In this document: in pieces, positions 48,033 to 54,287 of the stretch
How the letters are laid out: each line of letters starts with the position of its first letter
How positions within the stretch are numbered: the stretch's first letter is position 1
Assembly (NCBI RefSeq): GCF_003429665.1
Contig: NZ_QUWK01000005.1
Location: 124,001-188,000 of the forward strand
From: Sphaerochaeta halotolerans
GTDB taxonomy: Bacteria > Spirochaetota > Spirochaetia > Sphaerochaetales > Sphaerochaetaceae
DNA length: 64,000 nt
Direction: 5' to 3'
Notes under the pieces: generated by a model
Told to the model about the DNA's origin: nothing
What the model saw: the letters and a program-made list of their open reading frames with translations, nothing else
Database searches by the model: none
Made by a program: the position numbers and the translations under genes

Positions 48033-49529
48033 ATGAACAGGTATCAGCTCATCACCGCCTTGGCTTTTGCACTCTATCTGGGTCTTATGCTAGCTATCGG
48101 GTTTTTCACCTTTAGAAAAACAAAATCCACCAGTGACTACTTTCTCGGTGGCCGCTCGATCGGTCCATGGTTCACAGCACTCAGCGCCGAGGCGAGTGAT
48201 ATGTCTGGATGGCTCCTGATGGGACTTCCTGGCCTTGCCTACTTCACTGGGCTTCAGGAAGCTTTCTGGACCGCTGTTGGATTGTTGGTAGGCACCTACC
48301 TCAACTGGTTGTTTGTTGCAAAGCGGATGAGGAAATATTCCATTCACGCTAAGGATTCCATTACCATTCCTGAATTTCTCACCAATCGTTTCCATGATAA
48401 GAGCAAGCTGTTGCAAACCATCAGCTCCATTATCATCCTGGTGTTCTTCATTGTATATACAGCAAGTGGCTTCCTAGCGTCCGCGAAACTGTTCACAGCC
48501 GTTTTTGGTATGAACTACTACGTTGCACTCATCTTGGGCGTACTGGTCATTCTTGGATACACCTTACTTGGCGGATATCTTGCAGTAGTCGCAACAGACT
48601 TTCTGCAAGGAAGCCTGATGTTCTTTGCATTGGTAACGACCGGGATAATTGCAGTTTTTACCATTGGAGGACCCGCTCACACCCTGGAACAACTCAGCCA
48701 ATTCGGCCAGCACTTCATAAACCCGTTTGTTACCCCTCCTGGTACCAGCTATGGATTCCTGCAAATCCTTAGTGCCCTTGCCTGGGGACTTGGGTACTTC
48801 GGCATGCCTCATATCCTCATCCGGTTCATGTCCATTAGGAGCAACAATGAGGTTAAGACGAGTCGGAGAATTGCAATGGTCTGGGTTATCATCGCTATGG
48901 CAGCAGCATTGCTTGTTGGTGTTGTCGGAAAAATCTTCCTGCTTCCAGTCGCATATGGCTCCCAGAGTGCTGCTGAAGCTGTATTCATCGCCAGTATGCA
49001 GAAAATCTTCCCAACCTTCATAGCAGGTTTCTTCCTCTGTGCAATTCTTGCTGCAAGCATGAGCACTGCTGACAGCCAGCTCTTGGTAGCCTCCTCTGCC
49101 TTCTCAAAGGATGTCTACAAGGCAGTTCTGAGAAAGGACGCCTCTGACAAGGAGACATTGTTGGTTAGCAGAATCACCGTAGTTGCGATTACAATCATAG
49201 CTATCTTCCTTGCTTTGGATCCAAATTCCTCCATCTTCGATGTAGTGAGTTATGCGTGGGCAGGATTCGGGGCGACCTTTGGTCCGGTCATCCTTGCATC
49301 TCTCTTCTGGAGACGCGCCAGCCGCAATGGAGCTGTTGCAGCCATGCTTGGTGGCGGTATTACCGTCGTTGTATGGAAACAACTCTCAGGCGGCCTATTT
49401 GATGTCTATGAGTTACTCCCCGGATTCATCATCGCTTCCCTGTGCATGGTTATCTTCAGTCTGCTTGAGAAACATCCTGATGAGGAGGTTTTCAAGGAGT
49501 TCGATGCCTTTATGGCCATCGAGGACTAA
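48033..49529 (+). CDS. putP: Sodium/proline symporter
   Basis: 498 residues, about 13 membrane segments of the sodium:solute symporter family. It has the PutP motif SAEASDMSGWLLMGLPGLAY, GWGLGYFGMPHILIRFM-like and the late AASMSTADSQLLVASSA sodium-site region. It imports proline with Na+. The start at 48033 (MNRYQLI) is preceded by GGGAG; upstream in-frame codons give a non-hydrophobic, non-conserved extension. Followed by a strong terminator. Confidence 0.93.
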   Translation: MNRYQLITALAFALYLGLMLAIGFFTFRKTKSTSDYFLGGRSIGPWFTALSAEASDMSGWLLMGLPGLAYFTGLQEAFWTAVGLLVGTYLNWLFVAKRMRKYSIHAKDSITIPEFLTNRFHDKSKLLQTISSIIILVFFIVYTASGFLASAKLFTAVFGMNYYVALILGVLVILGYTLLGGYLAVVATDFLQGSLMFFALVTTGIIAVFTIGGPAHTLEQLSQFGQHFINPFVTPPGTSYGFLQILSALAWGLGYFGMPHILIRFMSIRSNNEVKTSRRIAMVWVIIAMAAALLVGVVGKIFLLPVAYGSQSAAEAVFIASMQKIFPTFIAGFFLCAILAASMSTADSQLLVASSAFSKDVYKAVLRKDASDKETLLVSRITVVAITIIAIFLALDPNSSIFDVVSYAWAGFGATFGPVILASLFWRRASRNGAVAAMLGGGITVVVWKQLSGGLFDVYELLPGFIIASLCMVIFSLLEKHPDEEVFKEFDAFMAIED

Positions 49530-49534
49530 GCGGC

Positions 49535-49560
49535 TAAACCGGGGTACTCCCCCGGTTTTC
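49535..49560 (+). terminator. Terminator of putP
   Basis: AACCGGGG pairs with CCCCGGTT over a short loop and is followed by TTCTT. Confidence 0.85.
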
Positions 49561-49663
49561 TTATGCTCTCCATGATTCTTGTATATAACCACTTGACCGC
49601 ATGACCGAGTTTGCCTATACTAGTTTCAATCCCTAGCCATTCGGTAGGTAATTTCTTGAAGGA

Positions 49664-49715
49664 GGCACATCAATGATGCAAAGCATGCAAGACAGCATTG
49701 AATCTGACATGTGCC
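49664..49715 (+). promoter_or_regulatory. Hairpin sequestering the ribosome site of leader ORF 1
   Basis: GGCACAT (49664-49670), which includes part of the AAGGAGG ribosome site, is complementary to ATGTGCC (49709-49715). Inside it CAATG pairs with CATTG and ATGC with GCAT. The Met codon 13 of leader ORF 1 lies in the 3' arm. Confidence 0.6.
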
Positions 49716-49732
49716 AAAACGCACTCGCCTAA
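49673..49732 (+). CDS. Met-rich leader peptide 1 of metY-metA
   Basis: A 19-residue ORF, MMQSMQDSIESDMCQNALA, four of whose residues are Met and one Cys. It has an ideal ribosome site (AAGGAGG, 7-base spacing). It lies between the putP terminator and metY, in the 5' leader of methionine genes, so a regulatory uORF is likely. No protein function is expected. Confidence 0.55.
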   Translation: MMQSMQDSIESDMCQNALA

Positions 49733-49750
49733 GACCTTCAAGGAACCATC

Positions 49751-49810
49751 ATGAAACATGCTAAACATCCACGTTGTGGGTCGGTAACCGACCACATGCG
49801 AGGCTTCTGA
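49751..49810 (+). CDS. Leader peptide 2 of metY-metA
   Basis: A second 19-residue ORF, MKHAKHPRCGSVTDHMRGF, with AAGGA upstream, ending 56 bp before metY. A stem-loop (49776-49795) lies within its coding sequence, and its last codons and stop overlap the segment complementary to the metY ribosome site. Confidence 0.45.
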   Translation: MKHAKHPRCGSVTDHMRGF

Positions 49811-49860
49811 ACAGAACATAGAAGACCCGGCGTAGCCAGGTCAATATCGTCATTCAGGAG
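49804..49860 (+). promoter_or_regulatory. Predicted anti-Shine-Dalgarno structure controlling metY
   Basis: CTTCTGAA (49804-49811) pairs with TTCAGGAG (49853-49860, the metY ribosome site) through eight pairs, one of them G-U. A GACC..GGTC stem-loop (49824-49842) sits between them. Ribosomes finishing leader ORF 2 would cover the 5' arm and free the metY site. Confidence 0.55.
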
Positions 49861-49866
49861 TTTACC

Positions 49867-51168
49867 ATGCAAACCAACAATACATATCATTTTGAAACCC
49901 TGGCCCTGCACGCAGGACAAGAAAAGGCCGATAGCGCAACTGGATCCCGCGCAGTACCTATATACCAGACAACCAGCTACGTCTTTGACAACTGTGATGA
50001 TGCTGAGTCGCTTTTCAACCTCTCCAAGGCCGGAAACATTTATACCAGACTAGGGAACCCAACCCAAGAAGTATTCGAGAATCGGATGGCTCGTCTGGAG
50101 GGAGGAATTGGGGCATTGGCTGTTGCCAGTGGGTCGGCTGCCATTACCCTTACCATACTCAACTTAGCCAAGAACCAAGACCACATTGTCTCAGCGAAGA
50201 CCATCTACGGGGGAACCTACAACCTTTTTGCTCACACGCTTCCTGAGTGGGGGATTACCACCACCTTTGTGGATGCTACAAACACCATCGAAGTGGAACA
50301 AGCTATCCAAGAAAACACCAAGGCCCTGTTCGTGGAGTCCATAGGAAATCCAAACGCAACATTGTGTGACCTGCAGGTCTTGGCTGAACTTGCTCATCGC
50401 CACAAGATACCACTTGTGGTGGACAATACTTTCGCAACCCCCTACCTGCTCCGTCCTATCGAGCATGGAGCTGATATCGTGGTTCACTCGGCAACAAAGT
50501 TCATCGGCGGCCATGGCACGTCCCTTGGTGGCATCATCATTGACAGCGGGAACTTTGATTGGAAAGAGAGCGGAAAGTTCCCCTCAGTAACAGAACCGAA
50601 CGACAGTTACCATGGGTTGAGTTTTCTGGATGCAGCAGGAAAAGCTGCCTGGATTACCAAGGCCCGTACGGTCCTGCTCAGGGATACAGGACCTTGCATT
50701 GCCCCACTGAATGCATTCCTGTTCCTCCAAGGGCTGGAAACCCTTCCCCTACGTCTAGAGAGACATGTTCAGAATACATTGAAGGTGGTCGAGTTCCTTT
50801 CTGGTCATCCTCGTGTTGCCAAGGTGCAGCATCCCAGTCTGGAGGATAACCCCTATCACACTCTCTACCAGCACTACTTCCCCAAAGGGGGCGTCTCGAT
50901 TTTTACCTTCGATATCAAGGGGACTGGGGAAGATGCAAAGGCGTTCATTGACCGACTGCAGATTTTCAGCCTTCTCGCCAATGTAGCGGATGTAAAATCG
51001 CTGGTAATCCACCCAGGAACAACCACCCACTCCCAACTCACCAGGGAGGAGTTGGAAAGCCAGGGAATTACAGAGACCACCGTACGTCTTTCAATCGGAT
51101 GTGAACACATTGACGACCTGCTTGCTGATCTTGCGCAAGCTCTTGGGGAGGATCCATCATGCCAGTAA
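49867..51168 (+). CDS. metY: O-acetylhomoserine sulfhydrylase
   Basis: 433 residues, a Cys/Met-metabolism PLP enzyme. The PLP lysine is in VVHSATKFIGGHG; TRLGNPTQEVFENRMARLEGG and VDNTFATPYLLRP are family motifs. It makes homocysteine from O-acetylhomoserine and sulfide (direct sulfhydrylation). It is longer than cystathionine gamma-synthases (~380), as expected for MetY. It overlaps metA by 10 bp; AGGAG precedes its ATG. Confidence 0.93.
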   Translation: MQTNNTYHFETLALHAGQEKADSATGSRAVPIYQTTSYVFDNCDDAESLFNLSKAGNIYTRLGNPTQEVFENRMARLEGGIGALAVASGSAAITLTILNLAKNQDHIVSAKTIYGGTYNLFAHTLPEWGITTTFVDATNTIEVEQAIQENTKALFVESIGNPNATLCDLQVLAELAHRHKIPLVVDNTFATPYLLRPIEHGADIVVHSATKFIGGHGTSLGGIIIDSGNFDWKESGKFPSVTEPNDSYHGLSFLDAAGKAAWITKARTVLLRDTGPCIAPLNAFLFLQGLETLPLRLERHVQNTLKVVEFLSGHPRVAKVQHPSLEDNPYHTLYQHYFPKGGVSIFTFDIKGTGEDAKAFIDRLQIFSLLANVADVKSLVIHPGTTTHSQLTREELESQGITETTVRLSIGCEHIDDLLADLAQALGEDPSCQ

Positions 51169-52076
51169 CCATTCCCAAGGACCTCCCTGCTGGGGAGGTC
51201 CTCAAACAAGAGAATATCTTCTTCATGACTGCTGAGCGCGCAATCCACCAGGATATCCGCCCGCTCAAGGTTGCAATTCTCAACCTGATGCCAAACAAAA
51301 TGAGAACAGAGGAGCAGTTTCTCCGTTTACTTGGCAATACTGCCTTGCAGGTTGAGATTACCTTTCTGACCACTGCAAGCTATCAGAGCAAAAACACCCC
51401 TTCATCCTATCTGAAAGCATTCTACAAGACCTTTGACCACGTGAAGGAGGAGCACTATGATGCACTCATCATCACAGGGAGTCCTGTAGAGACCCTTGCA
51501 TTCGAAGAGGTGGCCTATTGGCAGGAGTTGGAGACAATCCTCCGTTGGGCAGACAAGCATGTATTCGCTTCGCTCTTTGTCTGTTGGGCTGCCCAGGCTG
51601 CCCTCTATTATTACTACGGCATTGGGAAACAGGTATTGGACAAAAAACTCTCAGGCATCTACAGCCATACCGTGCGAGACAGGAATCATCCACTGGTTCG
51701 AGGGTTCGATGACGTATTCTGGGCTCCTCACTCACGGCATACCACGCTCGATGAAGCGCGTCTTGCAAAACACAAGGAAATCCAAATCCTAGCCACCAGC
51801 AAGGAAGCGGGAGTCTACTTGGCTGCAAGCCAGAATGGAAGACAGGTCTTTGTCACAGGACATAGCGAGTATGACGAGAGAACACTCCTGGATGAGTATA
51901 CCAGGGACATTGCGGCCGGAGCCGATGTCCAGCTTCCGGTCAACTACTTTCAGGGAGATGATCCAGAGCAAGAAATATTGGTAACATGGAGAGGCCATGC
52001 AAATCTCTTGTTCAACAACTGGCTGAACTACCATGTCTACCAGAACACTCCCTATCACTTGGAGGAACTTGACTGA
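51159..52076 (+). CDS. metA: Homoserine O-acetyltransferase (MetA family)
   Basis: 305 residues. Catalytic Cys is in FVCWAAQAAL (more often ICWGAQAGL), the general-base His/Glu region in TGHSEYDERTL. The residue that sets acyl specificity is Glu (TGSPVETLAFEEV), the state linked to acetyl-CoA use in this family; succinyl-CoA enzymes have Gly there. This agrees with its partner MetY, which uses O-acetylhomoserine. GGGGAGG before the ATG. It converges on the MTA phosphorylase-like gene with a 22 bp overlap. Confidence 0.92.
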   Translation: MPVTIPKDLPAGEVLKQENIFFMTAERAIHQDIRPLKVAILNLMPNKMRTEEQFLRLLGNTALQVEITFLTTASYQSKNTPSSYLKAFYKTFDHVKEEHYDALIITGSPVETLAFEEVAYWQELETILRWADKHVFASLFVCWAAQAALYYYYGIGKQVLDKKLSGIYSHTVRDRNHPLVRGFDDVFWAPHSRHTTLDEARLAKHKEIQILATSKEAGVYLAASQNGRQVFVTGHSEYDERTLLDEYTRDIAAGADVQLPVNYFQGDDPEQEILVTWRGHANLLFNNWLNYHVYQNTPYHLEELD

Positions 52077-52774
52077 AGTACATTGCAACACAGCTCAGTC
52101 ATACTTCCCTTCAATGAAGCAATCTGCTCATCGGTGATGAACGTAACGTGTTCATGCTCGATTCCTGCTGCCCAGTTGATACTGTAGGCAAGGGCGAGCG
52201 TGGATATGTTGGCTTCGCGGAGCAGAGAAACCTCTGTTGCCAAGGTCATACCCACAATATCGCCACCGATACAACGCAGGTAGCGTATCTCGGCAGGGGT
52301 TTCCAATCTGGGACCGTTGGTACAGATGTACACCCCTGAATCGAGGAGGGATTCATCCTCTTTTAAGATTTTGGCTTTCAACGTAGCATCGAAGACCTCA
52401 TCCATGGATGTGTGCACCACCCCACGCTCTCCTCCTGTATAGAAGGTATGTTCCCTCCCGGAGGAAAGATCCACAAAATCACTGACCAAGCCAACCTTTC
52501 CCGGGGCCAGCTTCTCAGTAATGGAGCCTACCGCATATATTCCAATTGCATGAGTTACCCCAAGTATCTCAAGCGCTTTCACATTAGCACGGTAGTTGAT
52601 CAAATGAGGAAGAATGGAGTGATCCGACCCATGGCGGGGAAGAAAGACCAAGGAAGCATCCTTACCCTTTCCTACAAACAACGCAACATCCCCGTAGGGA
52701 GTATTCACAACCTGTCTCTCTGAATCGATCCCTTCCAAGGTATCGACTCCAGTACCACCAATAATTGCTTTCAT
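52055..52774 (-). CDS. Methylthioadenosine phosphorylase-family protein (or related nucleoside phosphorylase)
   Basis: 239 residues. MTAP/PNP-type motifs: IIGGTGVDTLEG, FLPRHGSDHSILPHLINYRAN (phosphate and base contacts), YICTNGPRLETPAEIR and GMTLATEVSLLREA. It cleaves methylthioadenosine (or methylthioinosine) with phosphate, releasing the base and 5-methylthioribose-1-phosphate. It overlaps the MtnA-like gene by 4 bp and is in one operon with a deaminase. The catalytic motif includes GMTLATE, which is also seen in hypoxanthine-type enzymes, so the base specificity is open. Confidence 0.85.
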   Translation of the reverse strand: MKAIIGGTGVDTLEGIDSERQVVNTPYGDVALFVGKGKDASLVFLPRHGSDHSILPHLINYRANVKALEILGVTHAIGIYAVGSITEKLAPGKVGLVSDFVDLSSGREHTFYTGGERGVVHTSMDEVFDATLKAKILKEDESLLDSGVYICTNGPRLETPAEIRYLRCIGGDIVGMTLATEVSLLREANISTLALAYSINWAAGIEHEHVTFITDEQIASLKGSMTELCCNVLQSSSSK

Positions 52775-53778
52775 TGAAAATTCCTCTTGATCTCTTCTGG
52801 TTTTAGTACCCCTTTCCCAGTGACAACCCCTGTTACCAAATCAGGAGGGATGATGTCAAAGGCCGGGTAGAGGGCCTGCATTCCATTAGAGGAGGTAGGG
52901 TTTCCCATGCACTGGGTCACCTCCTCAGCGTCACGCCACTCCATCTGTATGTCACGTGCATCCAGTTTCGTTGGGTCAGGAGAGACAGAGAAGGCATAGT
53001 AGGGAACCATGTAGCGGTGTGCCGCAATGGCATTGCCAAGGGTCCCCACCTTGTTCACGACTGTTCCATCCATACAGACCAAGTCTGCAGCAGTCATGTA
53101 GATATTCGCATCGCCGGTACTAAGGAAGGTTGCTCCCATTCCATCGGTGATTACGCGAACATCGATACCCATCTCCTCTAGGGAGGGGGCAGTAAGCCGG
53201 CTTCCTTGTAAGTACGGTCTTGTTTCCGGGACAAAAACAGTGATATCTTTTCCATCCTCTTTTGCATACGCAAGGGAGAGGAGGAAGGTATGCTCTGCAA
53301 AGCAAGTGGTCAGCACTCCAGCCTTATCTGGGATGAGAGCACTGCCTTCTTTCCCAAGCTGGTGGTAGAGCTGGTCAAAAACAGCTTTCTTGGCTTCCAC
53401 CAAAGGCTCCACTTGTGCGACAAAGTCAGGATCCCCTCGCAACTCTTCAAGAAGCGCAAGCAAGGACCGTTTCATCGTAGTGTTGGTTGGCCGTGAAGCA
53501 ATAAGCAATGCAGCTGAACGCTCGAGCTCAGCAAAATTTTCTTGTATGATTCCCTCTTTCATCTGCTTAGAGACAAACTCCATGGCAGTGAGAGCGACAT
53601 CCAAAGGCCCACCACCCTGGGTAACCATCCGCTTCAAGGCTGAGGCAATCTCAGGGACAGAGGAACAACGCTCAAAGCGTTTCTCAAACGGGTAGACCCG
53701 TCTGTCCCCGATCAAGAGATGTTTCCCCTCTATTCGGACAATATTCTCACTCCTCAAGAGATAAGGAAGGGAAATCAT
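52771..53778 (-). CDS. mtnA: Methylthioribose-1-phosphate isomerase-like protein (eIF2B-alpha family)
   Basis: 335 residues from the ATG at 53778, which overlaps the preceding stop by 1 bp (TGATG). Catalytic Cys in VLTTCFAEH and Asp in CMDGTVVNKVGT match the MtnA active pair; ETRPYLQGSRLTA is the family signature. However, HCNTG and GAPAIG, usual in MtnA, are changed (TTCFAEH, GGGPLD). It would isomerise 5-methylthioribose-1-phosphate to the ribulose form. The neighbouring phosphorylase supports that role, but a related ribose-phosphate isomerase activity cannot be excluded. Confidence 0.8.
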   Translation of the reverse strand: MISLPYLLRSENIVRIEGKHLLIGDRRVYPFEKRFERCSSVPEIASALKRMVTQGGGPLDVALTAMEFVSKQMKEGIIQENFAELERSAALLIASRPTNTTMKRSLLALLEELRGDPDFVAQVEPLVEAKKAVFDQLYHQLGKEGSALIPDKAGVLTTCFAEHTFLLSLAYAKEDGKDITVFVPETRPYLQGSRLTAPSLEEMGIDVRVITDGMGATFLSTGDANIYMTAADLVCMDGTVVNKVGTLGNAIAAHRYMVPYYAFSVSPDPTKLDARDIQMEWRDAEEVTQCMGNPTSSNGMQALYPAFDIIPPDLVTGVVTGKGVLKPEEIKRNFQ

Positions 53779-54287
53779 CAATGTATCCAGAAGGAGCGAT
53801 GATCTTCCACGATAGCCTTGAGCAGTGCTTCATCCTCTGCTGGCCCTACCACCTCCATGTCCTTCTGCCCATGGGCGAGGACATCGTGACTGGGAAGGTT
53901 GAATGTGGGATTCTGCTCGTCGGCTCCGGTCAACTCGAGAAGTTTCTTCTCCGTGATGCCAAAGACAAGCCTCCTTACATTAGTCCAGTACATTGCACCG
54001 GTACACATCACACAAGGCTCTGCATTGGTGTATAGCGTACATGTTGCAAGGAGCTCTGGATCGTACAGTTTGCTTGCCTTGAAGAGCAGCAGGGTCTCTG
54101 CATGCATGGCAGACCCGCCTTCCTCATAATCATTCATTTGTTCAAGCAGAATCTCTCCATCCTTGTCAGCCAGCAAGGCTCCAAAGGGATGATTACCGTT
54201 CTCTTTTGCCTGATGGGCAATTCTCACTGTCTCATACAACAGCTTTATATCCTGCTTATTGGGTTTGCTTCTCTTGATTGTAGGCAT
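53778..54287 (-). CDS. CDA-fold nucleobase/nucleoside deaminase
   Basis: 169 residues with the zinc-deaminase motifs HAETLLLFKA (HAE) and AEPCVMCTGA (PCxxC). Length and the HPFGALL start resemble guanine deaminases of the CDA type. First gene of an operon with the MtnA-like and MTAP-like genes, so it may act on adenine, guanine or methylthioadenosine released in the pathway. Deamination of MTA to methylthioinosine before phosphorolysis is one known variant of this salvage route. Substrate inferred, not shown. Confidence 0.82.
   Translation of the reverse strand: MPTIKRSKPNKQDIKLLYETVRIAHQAKENGNHPFGALLADKDGEILLEQMNDYEEGGSAMHAETLLLFKASKLYDPELLATCTLYTNAEPCVMCTGAMYWTNVRRLVFGITEKKLLELTGADEQNPTFNLPSHDVLAHGQKDMEVVGPAEDEALLKAIVEDHRSFWIH

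Follow-up and report, generated by a model that had tools for sequence, protein, structure and literature searches.

A probable tandem leader-peptide translation attenuator upstream of metY-metA in Sphaerochaeta halotolerans

The methionine-synthesis genes metY and metA of Sphaerochaeta halotolerans are preceded by a leader that probably works as a tandem leader-peptide translation attenuator, a two-step switch in which ribosomes on one small open reading frame would free a second, and ribosomes on the second would free metY. The leader is the stretch between a putP-like symporter gene and metY-metA, within the 64,000 nucleotides analysed here (the window), and it carries two short frames, ORF1 and ORF2, each with a good ribosome site. 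It is probably a shortage of methionine that induces the switch, although we infer this signal. An earlier note, made from the sequence of the window, had described two tandem leader ORFs before metY-metA, and every element that it named was found in place.

The expected start of the leader transcript, near position 49628, follows from the position of a sigma-70-like promoter (TTGACC-17-TATACT, 49593-49621, + strand, as are all leader features given here), and the same layout is seen 5' of metY in relatives. At the expected 5' end lies a palindrome, CCTAGCCATTCGGTAGG (49632-49648; local fold -5.3 kcal/mol), a candidate RNA hairpin and/or protein operator; nearly all relatives have a hairpin or palindrome in the corresponding position. 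ORF1 (49673-49732), with the ribosome site AGGAGG (49660-49665), encodes MMQSMQDSIESDMCQNALA; as the earlier note had pointed out, four of its 19 residues are Met, and a Met-Cys pair and an Ala near its end are kept among relatives. The ribosome site AAGGAA (49740-49745) serves ORF2 (49751-49810), which encodes MKHAKHPRCGSVTDHMRGF, a peptide with the conserved core RCGSVxD(H/R)M and an invariant Met16 codon at 49796-49798. The GSVTD codons of ORF2 also make a small hairpin, GGTCGGTAACCGACC (within 49751-49798), that is weaker or different in other clades. Both frames lie upstream of metY (49867-51168), an O-acetylhomoserine sulfhydrylase by its match to TIGR01326 (619.9 bits vs a cut-off of 495.1), and of metA (51159-52076), which overlaps metY and encodes a homoserine O-acyltransferase, likely of the acetyl type (460 bits against NF047918, just under the cut-off of 460.5). 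Methionine-salvage genes (MTA phosphorylase-like and mtnA-like) are found at 52055-53781 on the - strand, convergent to metY-metA and overlapping the end of metA.

Three pairings connect these elements, and the fold of the whole leader is more stable than that of shuffled sequence (z = -2.86). Two of them appear in the earlier note, which had matched GGCACAT with ATGTGCC and had observed that the end of ORF2 overlaps a complement of the metY ribosome site. Both hold. In the first, GGCACAT (49664-49670) forms the 3' part of the region around the ORF1 ribosome site, and its potential partner ATGTGCC (49709-49715) spells the Met-Cys codons of that frame; the second joins an anti-ribosome-site (anti-SD) strand, CTTCTGAA (49804-49811, overlapping the ORF2 stop), to the metY site TTCAGGAG (49853-49860), with an inner hairpin, GACCCGGCGTAGCCAGGTC (49824-49842), between them; in other clades, different hairpins take the place of the inner one. 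Beyond what had been noted before are the promoter and the palindrome that follows it, the setting of the anti-SD position by Met16 (see below), and a pairing between CTTGAAGG (49655-49662), which overlaps the ORF1 ribosome site, and CCTTCAAG (49735-49742), which overlaps that of ORF2.

Comparison across Sphaerochaeta species, proposed in the earlier note as a check, indicates that both ORFs are conserved through the genus and that the stem masking metY covaries. metY was located in 24 of the 26 genus genomes, one of which was left out as its contig starts within metY; in all of the remaining 23, with a readable upstream region, both ORF1 and ORF2 are present. They are also found in a genome of another genus (G102), as MMSMSMTDSPDGMMCRRA and MKNASCPRCRSVKDRMGF. 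ORF1 takes the forms MMQSMQDSIESDMCQNALA, MMQMQSSTDSCDPMMCHNALA, MMRSNDSSDPCMCRMAL, MRSMTDSQVRMMCHQA, and others, yet it is Met-rich in every clade and ends in Met-Cys-x-x-Ala, with 2-5 internal Met per 15-20 residues vs 1.8% Met in neighbouring genes. In all 20 leaders compared, the Met-Cys pair reads ATG TGC, a uniformity to be expected from a constraint on the RNA itself. For ORF2, versions elsewhere in the genus include MKHAKHPRCGSVTDHM, MKQAKHPRCGSVVDHM, MKHHIHPRCGSVADHM, MTNAPRLRCNSIKDRM, and MKRAPHPRCGSVKDRM. Its substitutions in frame give pN 0.25 and pS 0.70, a pN/pS of 0.36, vs 1.94 and 1.06 in the shifted frames. Residues R8, D14, and M16 are invariant in the 20 leaders, the invariant R8 being written with four different Arg codons, and four Gly and four Ser codons are likewise in use. 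This pattern marks ORF2 as selected at the peptide level. Within the genus, the ORF1 peptide has no significant match except 5' of metY, and the ORF2 peptide has none elsewhere in the genus or in the phylum sample; a scan of GTDB contigs with ORF2 returned 11 loci, all Sphaerochaeta or spirochaete and apparently the same leaders. Weak ORF2-like matches in other spirochaetes and in a viral contig (L076) were dismissed as chance since they lie in larger or unrelated frames.

The helix that covers the metY ribosome site was aligned manually, its offset being 4 nt in L019-L021 rather than the 5 nt used elsewhere, and masking was considered in 14 core leaders, 10 of them distinct. The window pair CTTCTGAA/TTCAGGAG becomes CTTCTGGT/ACCAGGAG, CTCTTGTT/AACAGGAG, and TTCCTTCT/AGAAGGAA in other clades. 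Among the ten distinct leaders, 90% of cells are paired and both sides have changed in 4 of the 8 pairs; the covariation score is matched by 0 of 500 shuffles and falls from 0.47 to at most 0.24 when the partner strand is slid by 1-3 columns. Furthermore, the duplex has a mean energy of -12.9 kcal/mol within species vs -8.6 kcal/mol when strands are swapped among five clades, which 2 of 120 permutations equal. The comparison thus shows that the metY site of the core leaders is masked by a conserved, covarying helix; most of the leaders whose ORF1-ORF2 spacer is long (L017, L023, L024, L077) give no support for such masking. The anti-SD strand lies 4-5 nt past the Met16 codon of ORF2 in all 14 core leaders. 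This spacing is constant despite an ORF2 stop that moves from clade to clade, lying at Met16, three codons later (the clade of the window), or past the metY start (L010, L012, L013); consequently, the geometry is set by Met16 rather than by the stop codon. Of all the hints that the decisive event may be the holding of a ribosome at Met16 and not termination, this is the strongest.

Recalculating what it costs to open each ribosome site with a ribosome footprint (P-14 to P+15) kept unpaired points in the same direction. Opening the metY site of the window takes 9.3 kcal/mol in the free leader and 9-11 kcal/mol with a ribosome on ORF2 codons 2-14, and the figure falls from 5.6 to 2.4 kcal/mol with the ribosome at codons 15-19. 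In most core leaders, too, it takes a ribosome at H15, M16, or the next codon to bring the cost down from about 6-12 to 2-5 kcal/mol, so that a ribosome at this defined place in ORF2 is predicted to open the metY site, in keeping with the earlier proposal that translation of ORF2 would do so. Some core leaders show only a small drop (5.9 to 4.1 kcal/mol in L010; 9.2 to 7.4 kcal/mol in L008), and among the long-spacer leaders, the step is absent from the calculations in L017, L023, L024, and L077 and is seen in L018.

For ORF1, the earlier note had supposed that stalling or a failure to start there could change the opening of metY. The ORF1 site itself costs 11.5 kcal/mol to open in the folded leader, and the CTTGAAGG/CCTTCAAG pairing links it to the ORF2 site, which costs 7.6 kcal/mol in the free leader and is predicted to fall to 2.9 kcal/mol once a ribosome waits for Met2 at the start of ORF1. 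With a ribosome passing through the middle of ORF1, the cost stays at about 7.6 kcal/mol, and near the end of ORF1 it drops from 2.8 to 0.9 kcal/mol. Stalling at the mid-ORF1 Met-Cys codons was therefore rejected as an opener of ORF2, since on its own it fails to free the ORF2 site, and the ORF1 step requires a ribosome at the start codon or the completion of ORF1. Between clades, one pair of the CTTGAAGG/CCTTCAAG helix appears as A-U, G-C, or G-U. The helix of ORF1 with its own site (GGCACAT/ATGTGCC) gave no signal in the clade-swap test within Sphaerochaeta because its strands hardly vary there.

Taken together, these results have led to the following model. The ORF1 ribosome site would have two partners, the Met-Cys codons of its own frame and the ribosome site of ORF2. 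ORF2 would be freed by a ribosome that either waits for Met2 at the start of ORF1 or stands at the end of ORF1, and metY by one waiting at or just past Met16 of ORF2. Scarce Met-tRNA would hold ribosomes at the Met codons of ORF1 and ORF2, perhaps aided by the conserved nascent peptide of ORF2. Thus, when methionine is short, the cascade would open and metY-metA would be translated; when it is plentiful, ribosomes would pass fast and the helices would re-form. Methionine (or cysteine) as the signal, actual stalling of ribosomes, and the direction of the response are presumed parts of this model. Codon starvation alone leaves the strong conservation of the non-Met residues of ORF2 unexplained, and the extra constraint on RCGSVxD suggests a role for the nascent peptide, which may even be the true sensor.

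Leaders of a related kind occur more widely. In other genera of the family (g20 and g9), a single uORF precedes metY (L078, L079, L081, L084, L085, L090), with the related cores RYGSVRSSM, RNGLVRASM, and FGPVHSSM, whose final Met lies 16-19 residues from the start. In L079, L081, L084, and L090, the ribosome sites of the uORF and of metY pair with each other (GGUUCC:GGAACC), and only 0-4 of 1000 shuffles are as good; L078 and L085 fail this shuffle test. The upstream neighbour at the single-uORF loci ends in ...KMHSMKSY and looks like rpsU. Palindromes, CCTAGCCATTCGGTAGG at 49632-49648 of the window and CCTACTAACCTAGTAGG and AAACCAGTAGGTTT elsewhere, occur at the promoters or transcript starts of metY across Spirochaetia (L135 and L142, 5' of metY; L080, L083, L086-L088, L091), including leaders without a uORF. 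Those of other genera are possibly related to the window palindrome, and possibly serve as a repressor operator, additional to any control by the leader.

Treponema-type genomes (family f3, whose matches include Treponema saccharophilum) have a different conserved leader peptide, MKFYFEKLVRENFRNGVM[R/C]xCC, also given as YFEKLVRENFRNGVM[R/C]xCC, which ends in a short Cys cluster. It occurs in at most 4 copies per genome and stands before metY, metQ, metN, cysK, and other genes, so that these leaders form a candidate sulfur amino-acid leader-peptide regulon. The Treponema-type leader (L143-L166, L170, L172-L180) is also seen before MetB/MetC-like, lanthionine-synthetase-like, and UroD/methyltransferase-like genes. 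Pairing joins its ribosome site to the codons at the conserved Met of the peptide, and the two covary: GGCACA goes with ATG TGC (Met-Cys), and GGCGCA goes with ATG CGC or CGT (Met-Arg). The leaders' own duplexes have a mean of -14.2 kcal/mol vs -12.4 kcal/mol for swapped ones, and 0 of 20000 permutations do as well. The GGCACAT/ATGTGCC pairing of ORF1 in the window shares this design, a likeness between the Sphaerochaeta and Treponema leaders that ties the former to the sulfur amino-acid regulon.

Given these findings, other explanations of the leader can be weighed. Its location before methionine genes would suit a known or new RNA of the SAM or T-box type, with the small ORFs present by chance. 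The earlier note had recognized neither form in the sequence and had proposed an Rfam search. At curated cut-offs, no Rfam family, including the T-box model, matches the window or 13 related loci, a permissive scan gave chance-level matches only, and the SAM-I riboswitch (RF00162) has no match in the leader or in the 26 genus genomes, in searches that did find the positive controls. Thus, no Rfam family explains the leader. As ORF2 is also selected as protein code, this reading is already contradicted and is extremely improbable. Another possibility is that translation of ORF1 and ORF2 governs premature termination, intrinsic or Rho-dependent, within the leader. This is the usual mode of leader-peptide attenuators of amino-acid operons, such as ilvB-II (PMC10272879), and by eye the ORF1-ORF2 linker is C-rich. 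However, no intrinsic terminator was found on the + strand of 49500-49920, which makes control of translation, the type suggested in the earlier note, more likely than classical transcription attenuation, and the conserved helix ends on a ribosome site rather than in a terminator. We therefore regard this explanation as decidedly improbable.

A simpler proposal is that ORF1, ORF2, and metY are merely coupled in series to set a low, constant output of metY, with no sensing at all. By the calculations, each site would indeed be masked until the upstream frame is translated, and in L010, L012, and L013, ORF2 reads through the metY start. However, plain coupling leaves the Met-rich ORF1, the conserved ORF2 peptide, and the Met16-keyed distance of the anti-SD strand unexplained, and it seems improbable. 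What the leader senses could also differ from the supply of Met-tRNA. TnaC, an arrest peptide that stalls the ribosome with tryptophan, provides a model in which the nascent RCGSVxDHM of ORF2 would stall the ribosome at Met16 on a small molecule (methionine, S-adenosylmethionine, homocysteine, or a sulfur compound), while ORF1 would merely meter access to ORF2. The conservation of R8, C9, G10, S11, D14, and M16 by residue, with free synonymous change, would fit such a peptide, as would the cores of other genera that end at Met 16-19 residues from the start and the predicted opening of the metY site by a ribosome at Met16. On the other hand, some members carry substitutions at C9 and G10 (RNGAS in L022; RCNSI in L017 and L018), and the Met-rich ORF1 and the Treponema sulfur-gene regulon fit a tRNA-supply signal as well. 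A metabolite-sensing arrest peptide is thus an unlikely, though serious, alternative to the two-step attenuator answering methionine shortage.

Searches of open-access papers turned up no account of such leaders in Sphaerochaeta or Treponema, or of ribosome-arresting peptides in the spirochaete phylum. For spirochaetes that lack SAM-I, as in the 26 Sphaerochaeta genomes, a tandem arrangement of a Met-rich uORF and a conserved peptide offers a directly testable answer to how methionine synthesis is controlled. The comparisons suggest that relatives, including Treponema, carry candidate leader switches of a related kind on several sulfur amino-acid genes, which in Treponema-type genomes would amount to a multi-gene leader-peptide regulon, and ORF2-type peptides become a candidate ribosome-arresting family. 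As a bolder extension, less likely than not to be right, the ORF2 peptide (RCGSVxDHM) and the Treponema peptide (YFEKLVRENFRNGVM) might together represent an undescribed bacterial class of arrest peptides that sense sulfur amino-acid status on the ribosome and replace SAM riboswitches in Spirochaetia, with two such ORFs in series forming a two-stage translational cascade in Sphaerochaeta.

Several known systems resemble parts of this arrangement. Closest in function are the cysteine-responsive polycysteine leader ORFs of mycobacteria, small ORFs that govern sulfur amino-acid genes and are described as translation attenuation (Canestrari 2020, cited in PMC13236596). As described there, those ORFs are leaderless and have runs of Cys, whereas ORF1 and ORF2 of the Sphaerochaeta leader both have strong ribosome sites and, with one Cys each, no cysteine run. 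The ilvB-II motif of Corynebacterium includes a conserved uORF of 15-17 codons that, like ORF1, is short and rich in codons for end-product amino acids, but it uses an intrinsic terminator for transcription attenuation, which the metY leader does not have (PMC10272879). In plants, nascent-peptide arrest at CGS1/MTO1 regulates the methionine-synthesis enzyme cystathionine gamma-synthase (PMC8137854). The likeness is that a nascent peptide would regulate an enzyme of methionine synthesis at translation; the plant system differs in being eukaryotic, in lying inside the coding region of the enzyme, and in repressing through mRNA decay after a SAM-responsive arrest, and its peptide is unrelated by eye to those of the leader. 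Cystathionine gamma-synthase belongs to the same fold family as MetY. The closest anatomy is that of the erm leaders, in particular ermA. The erm leaders respond to ribosome-bound macrolides and have a methyltransferase under their control. The ermA leader encodes two leader peptides (ermAL1 and ermAL2), and in one published model, stalling on the first ORF activates the second (PMC8274638). Both leaders have two tandem ORFs, each paired in the RNA to the next ribosome site; unlike those of erm, the ORFs of Sphaerochaeta are Met-rich and stand before methionine genes.
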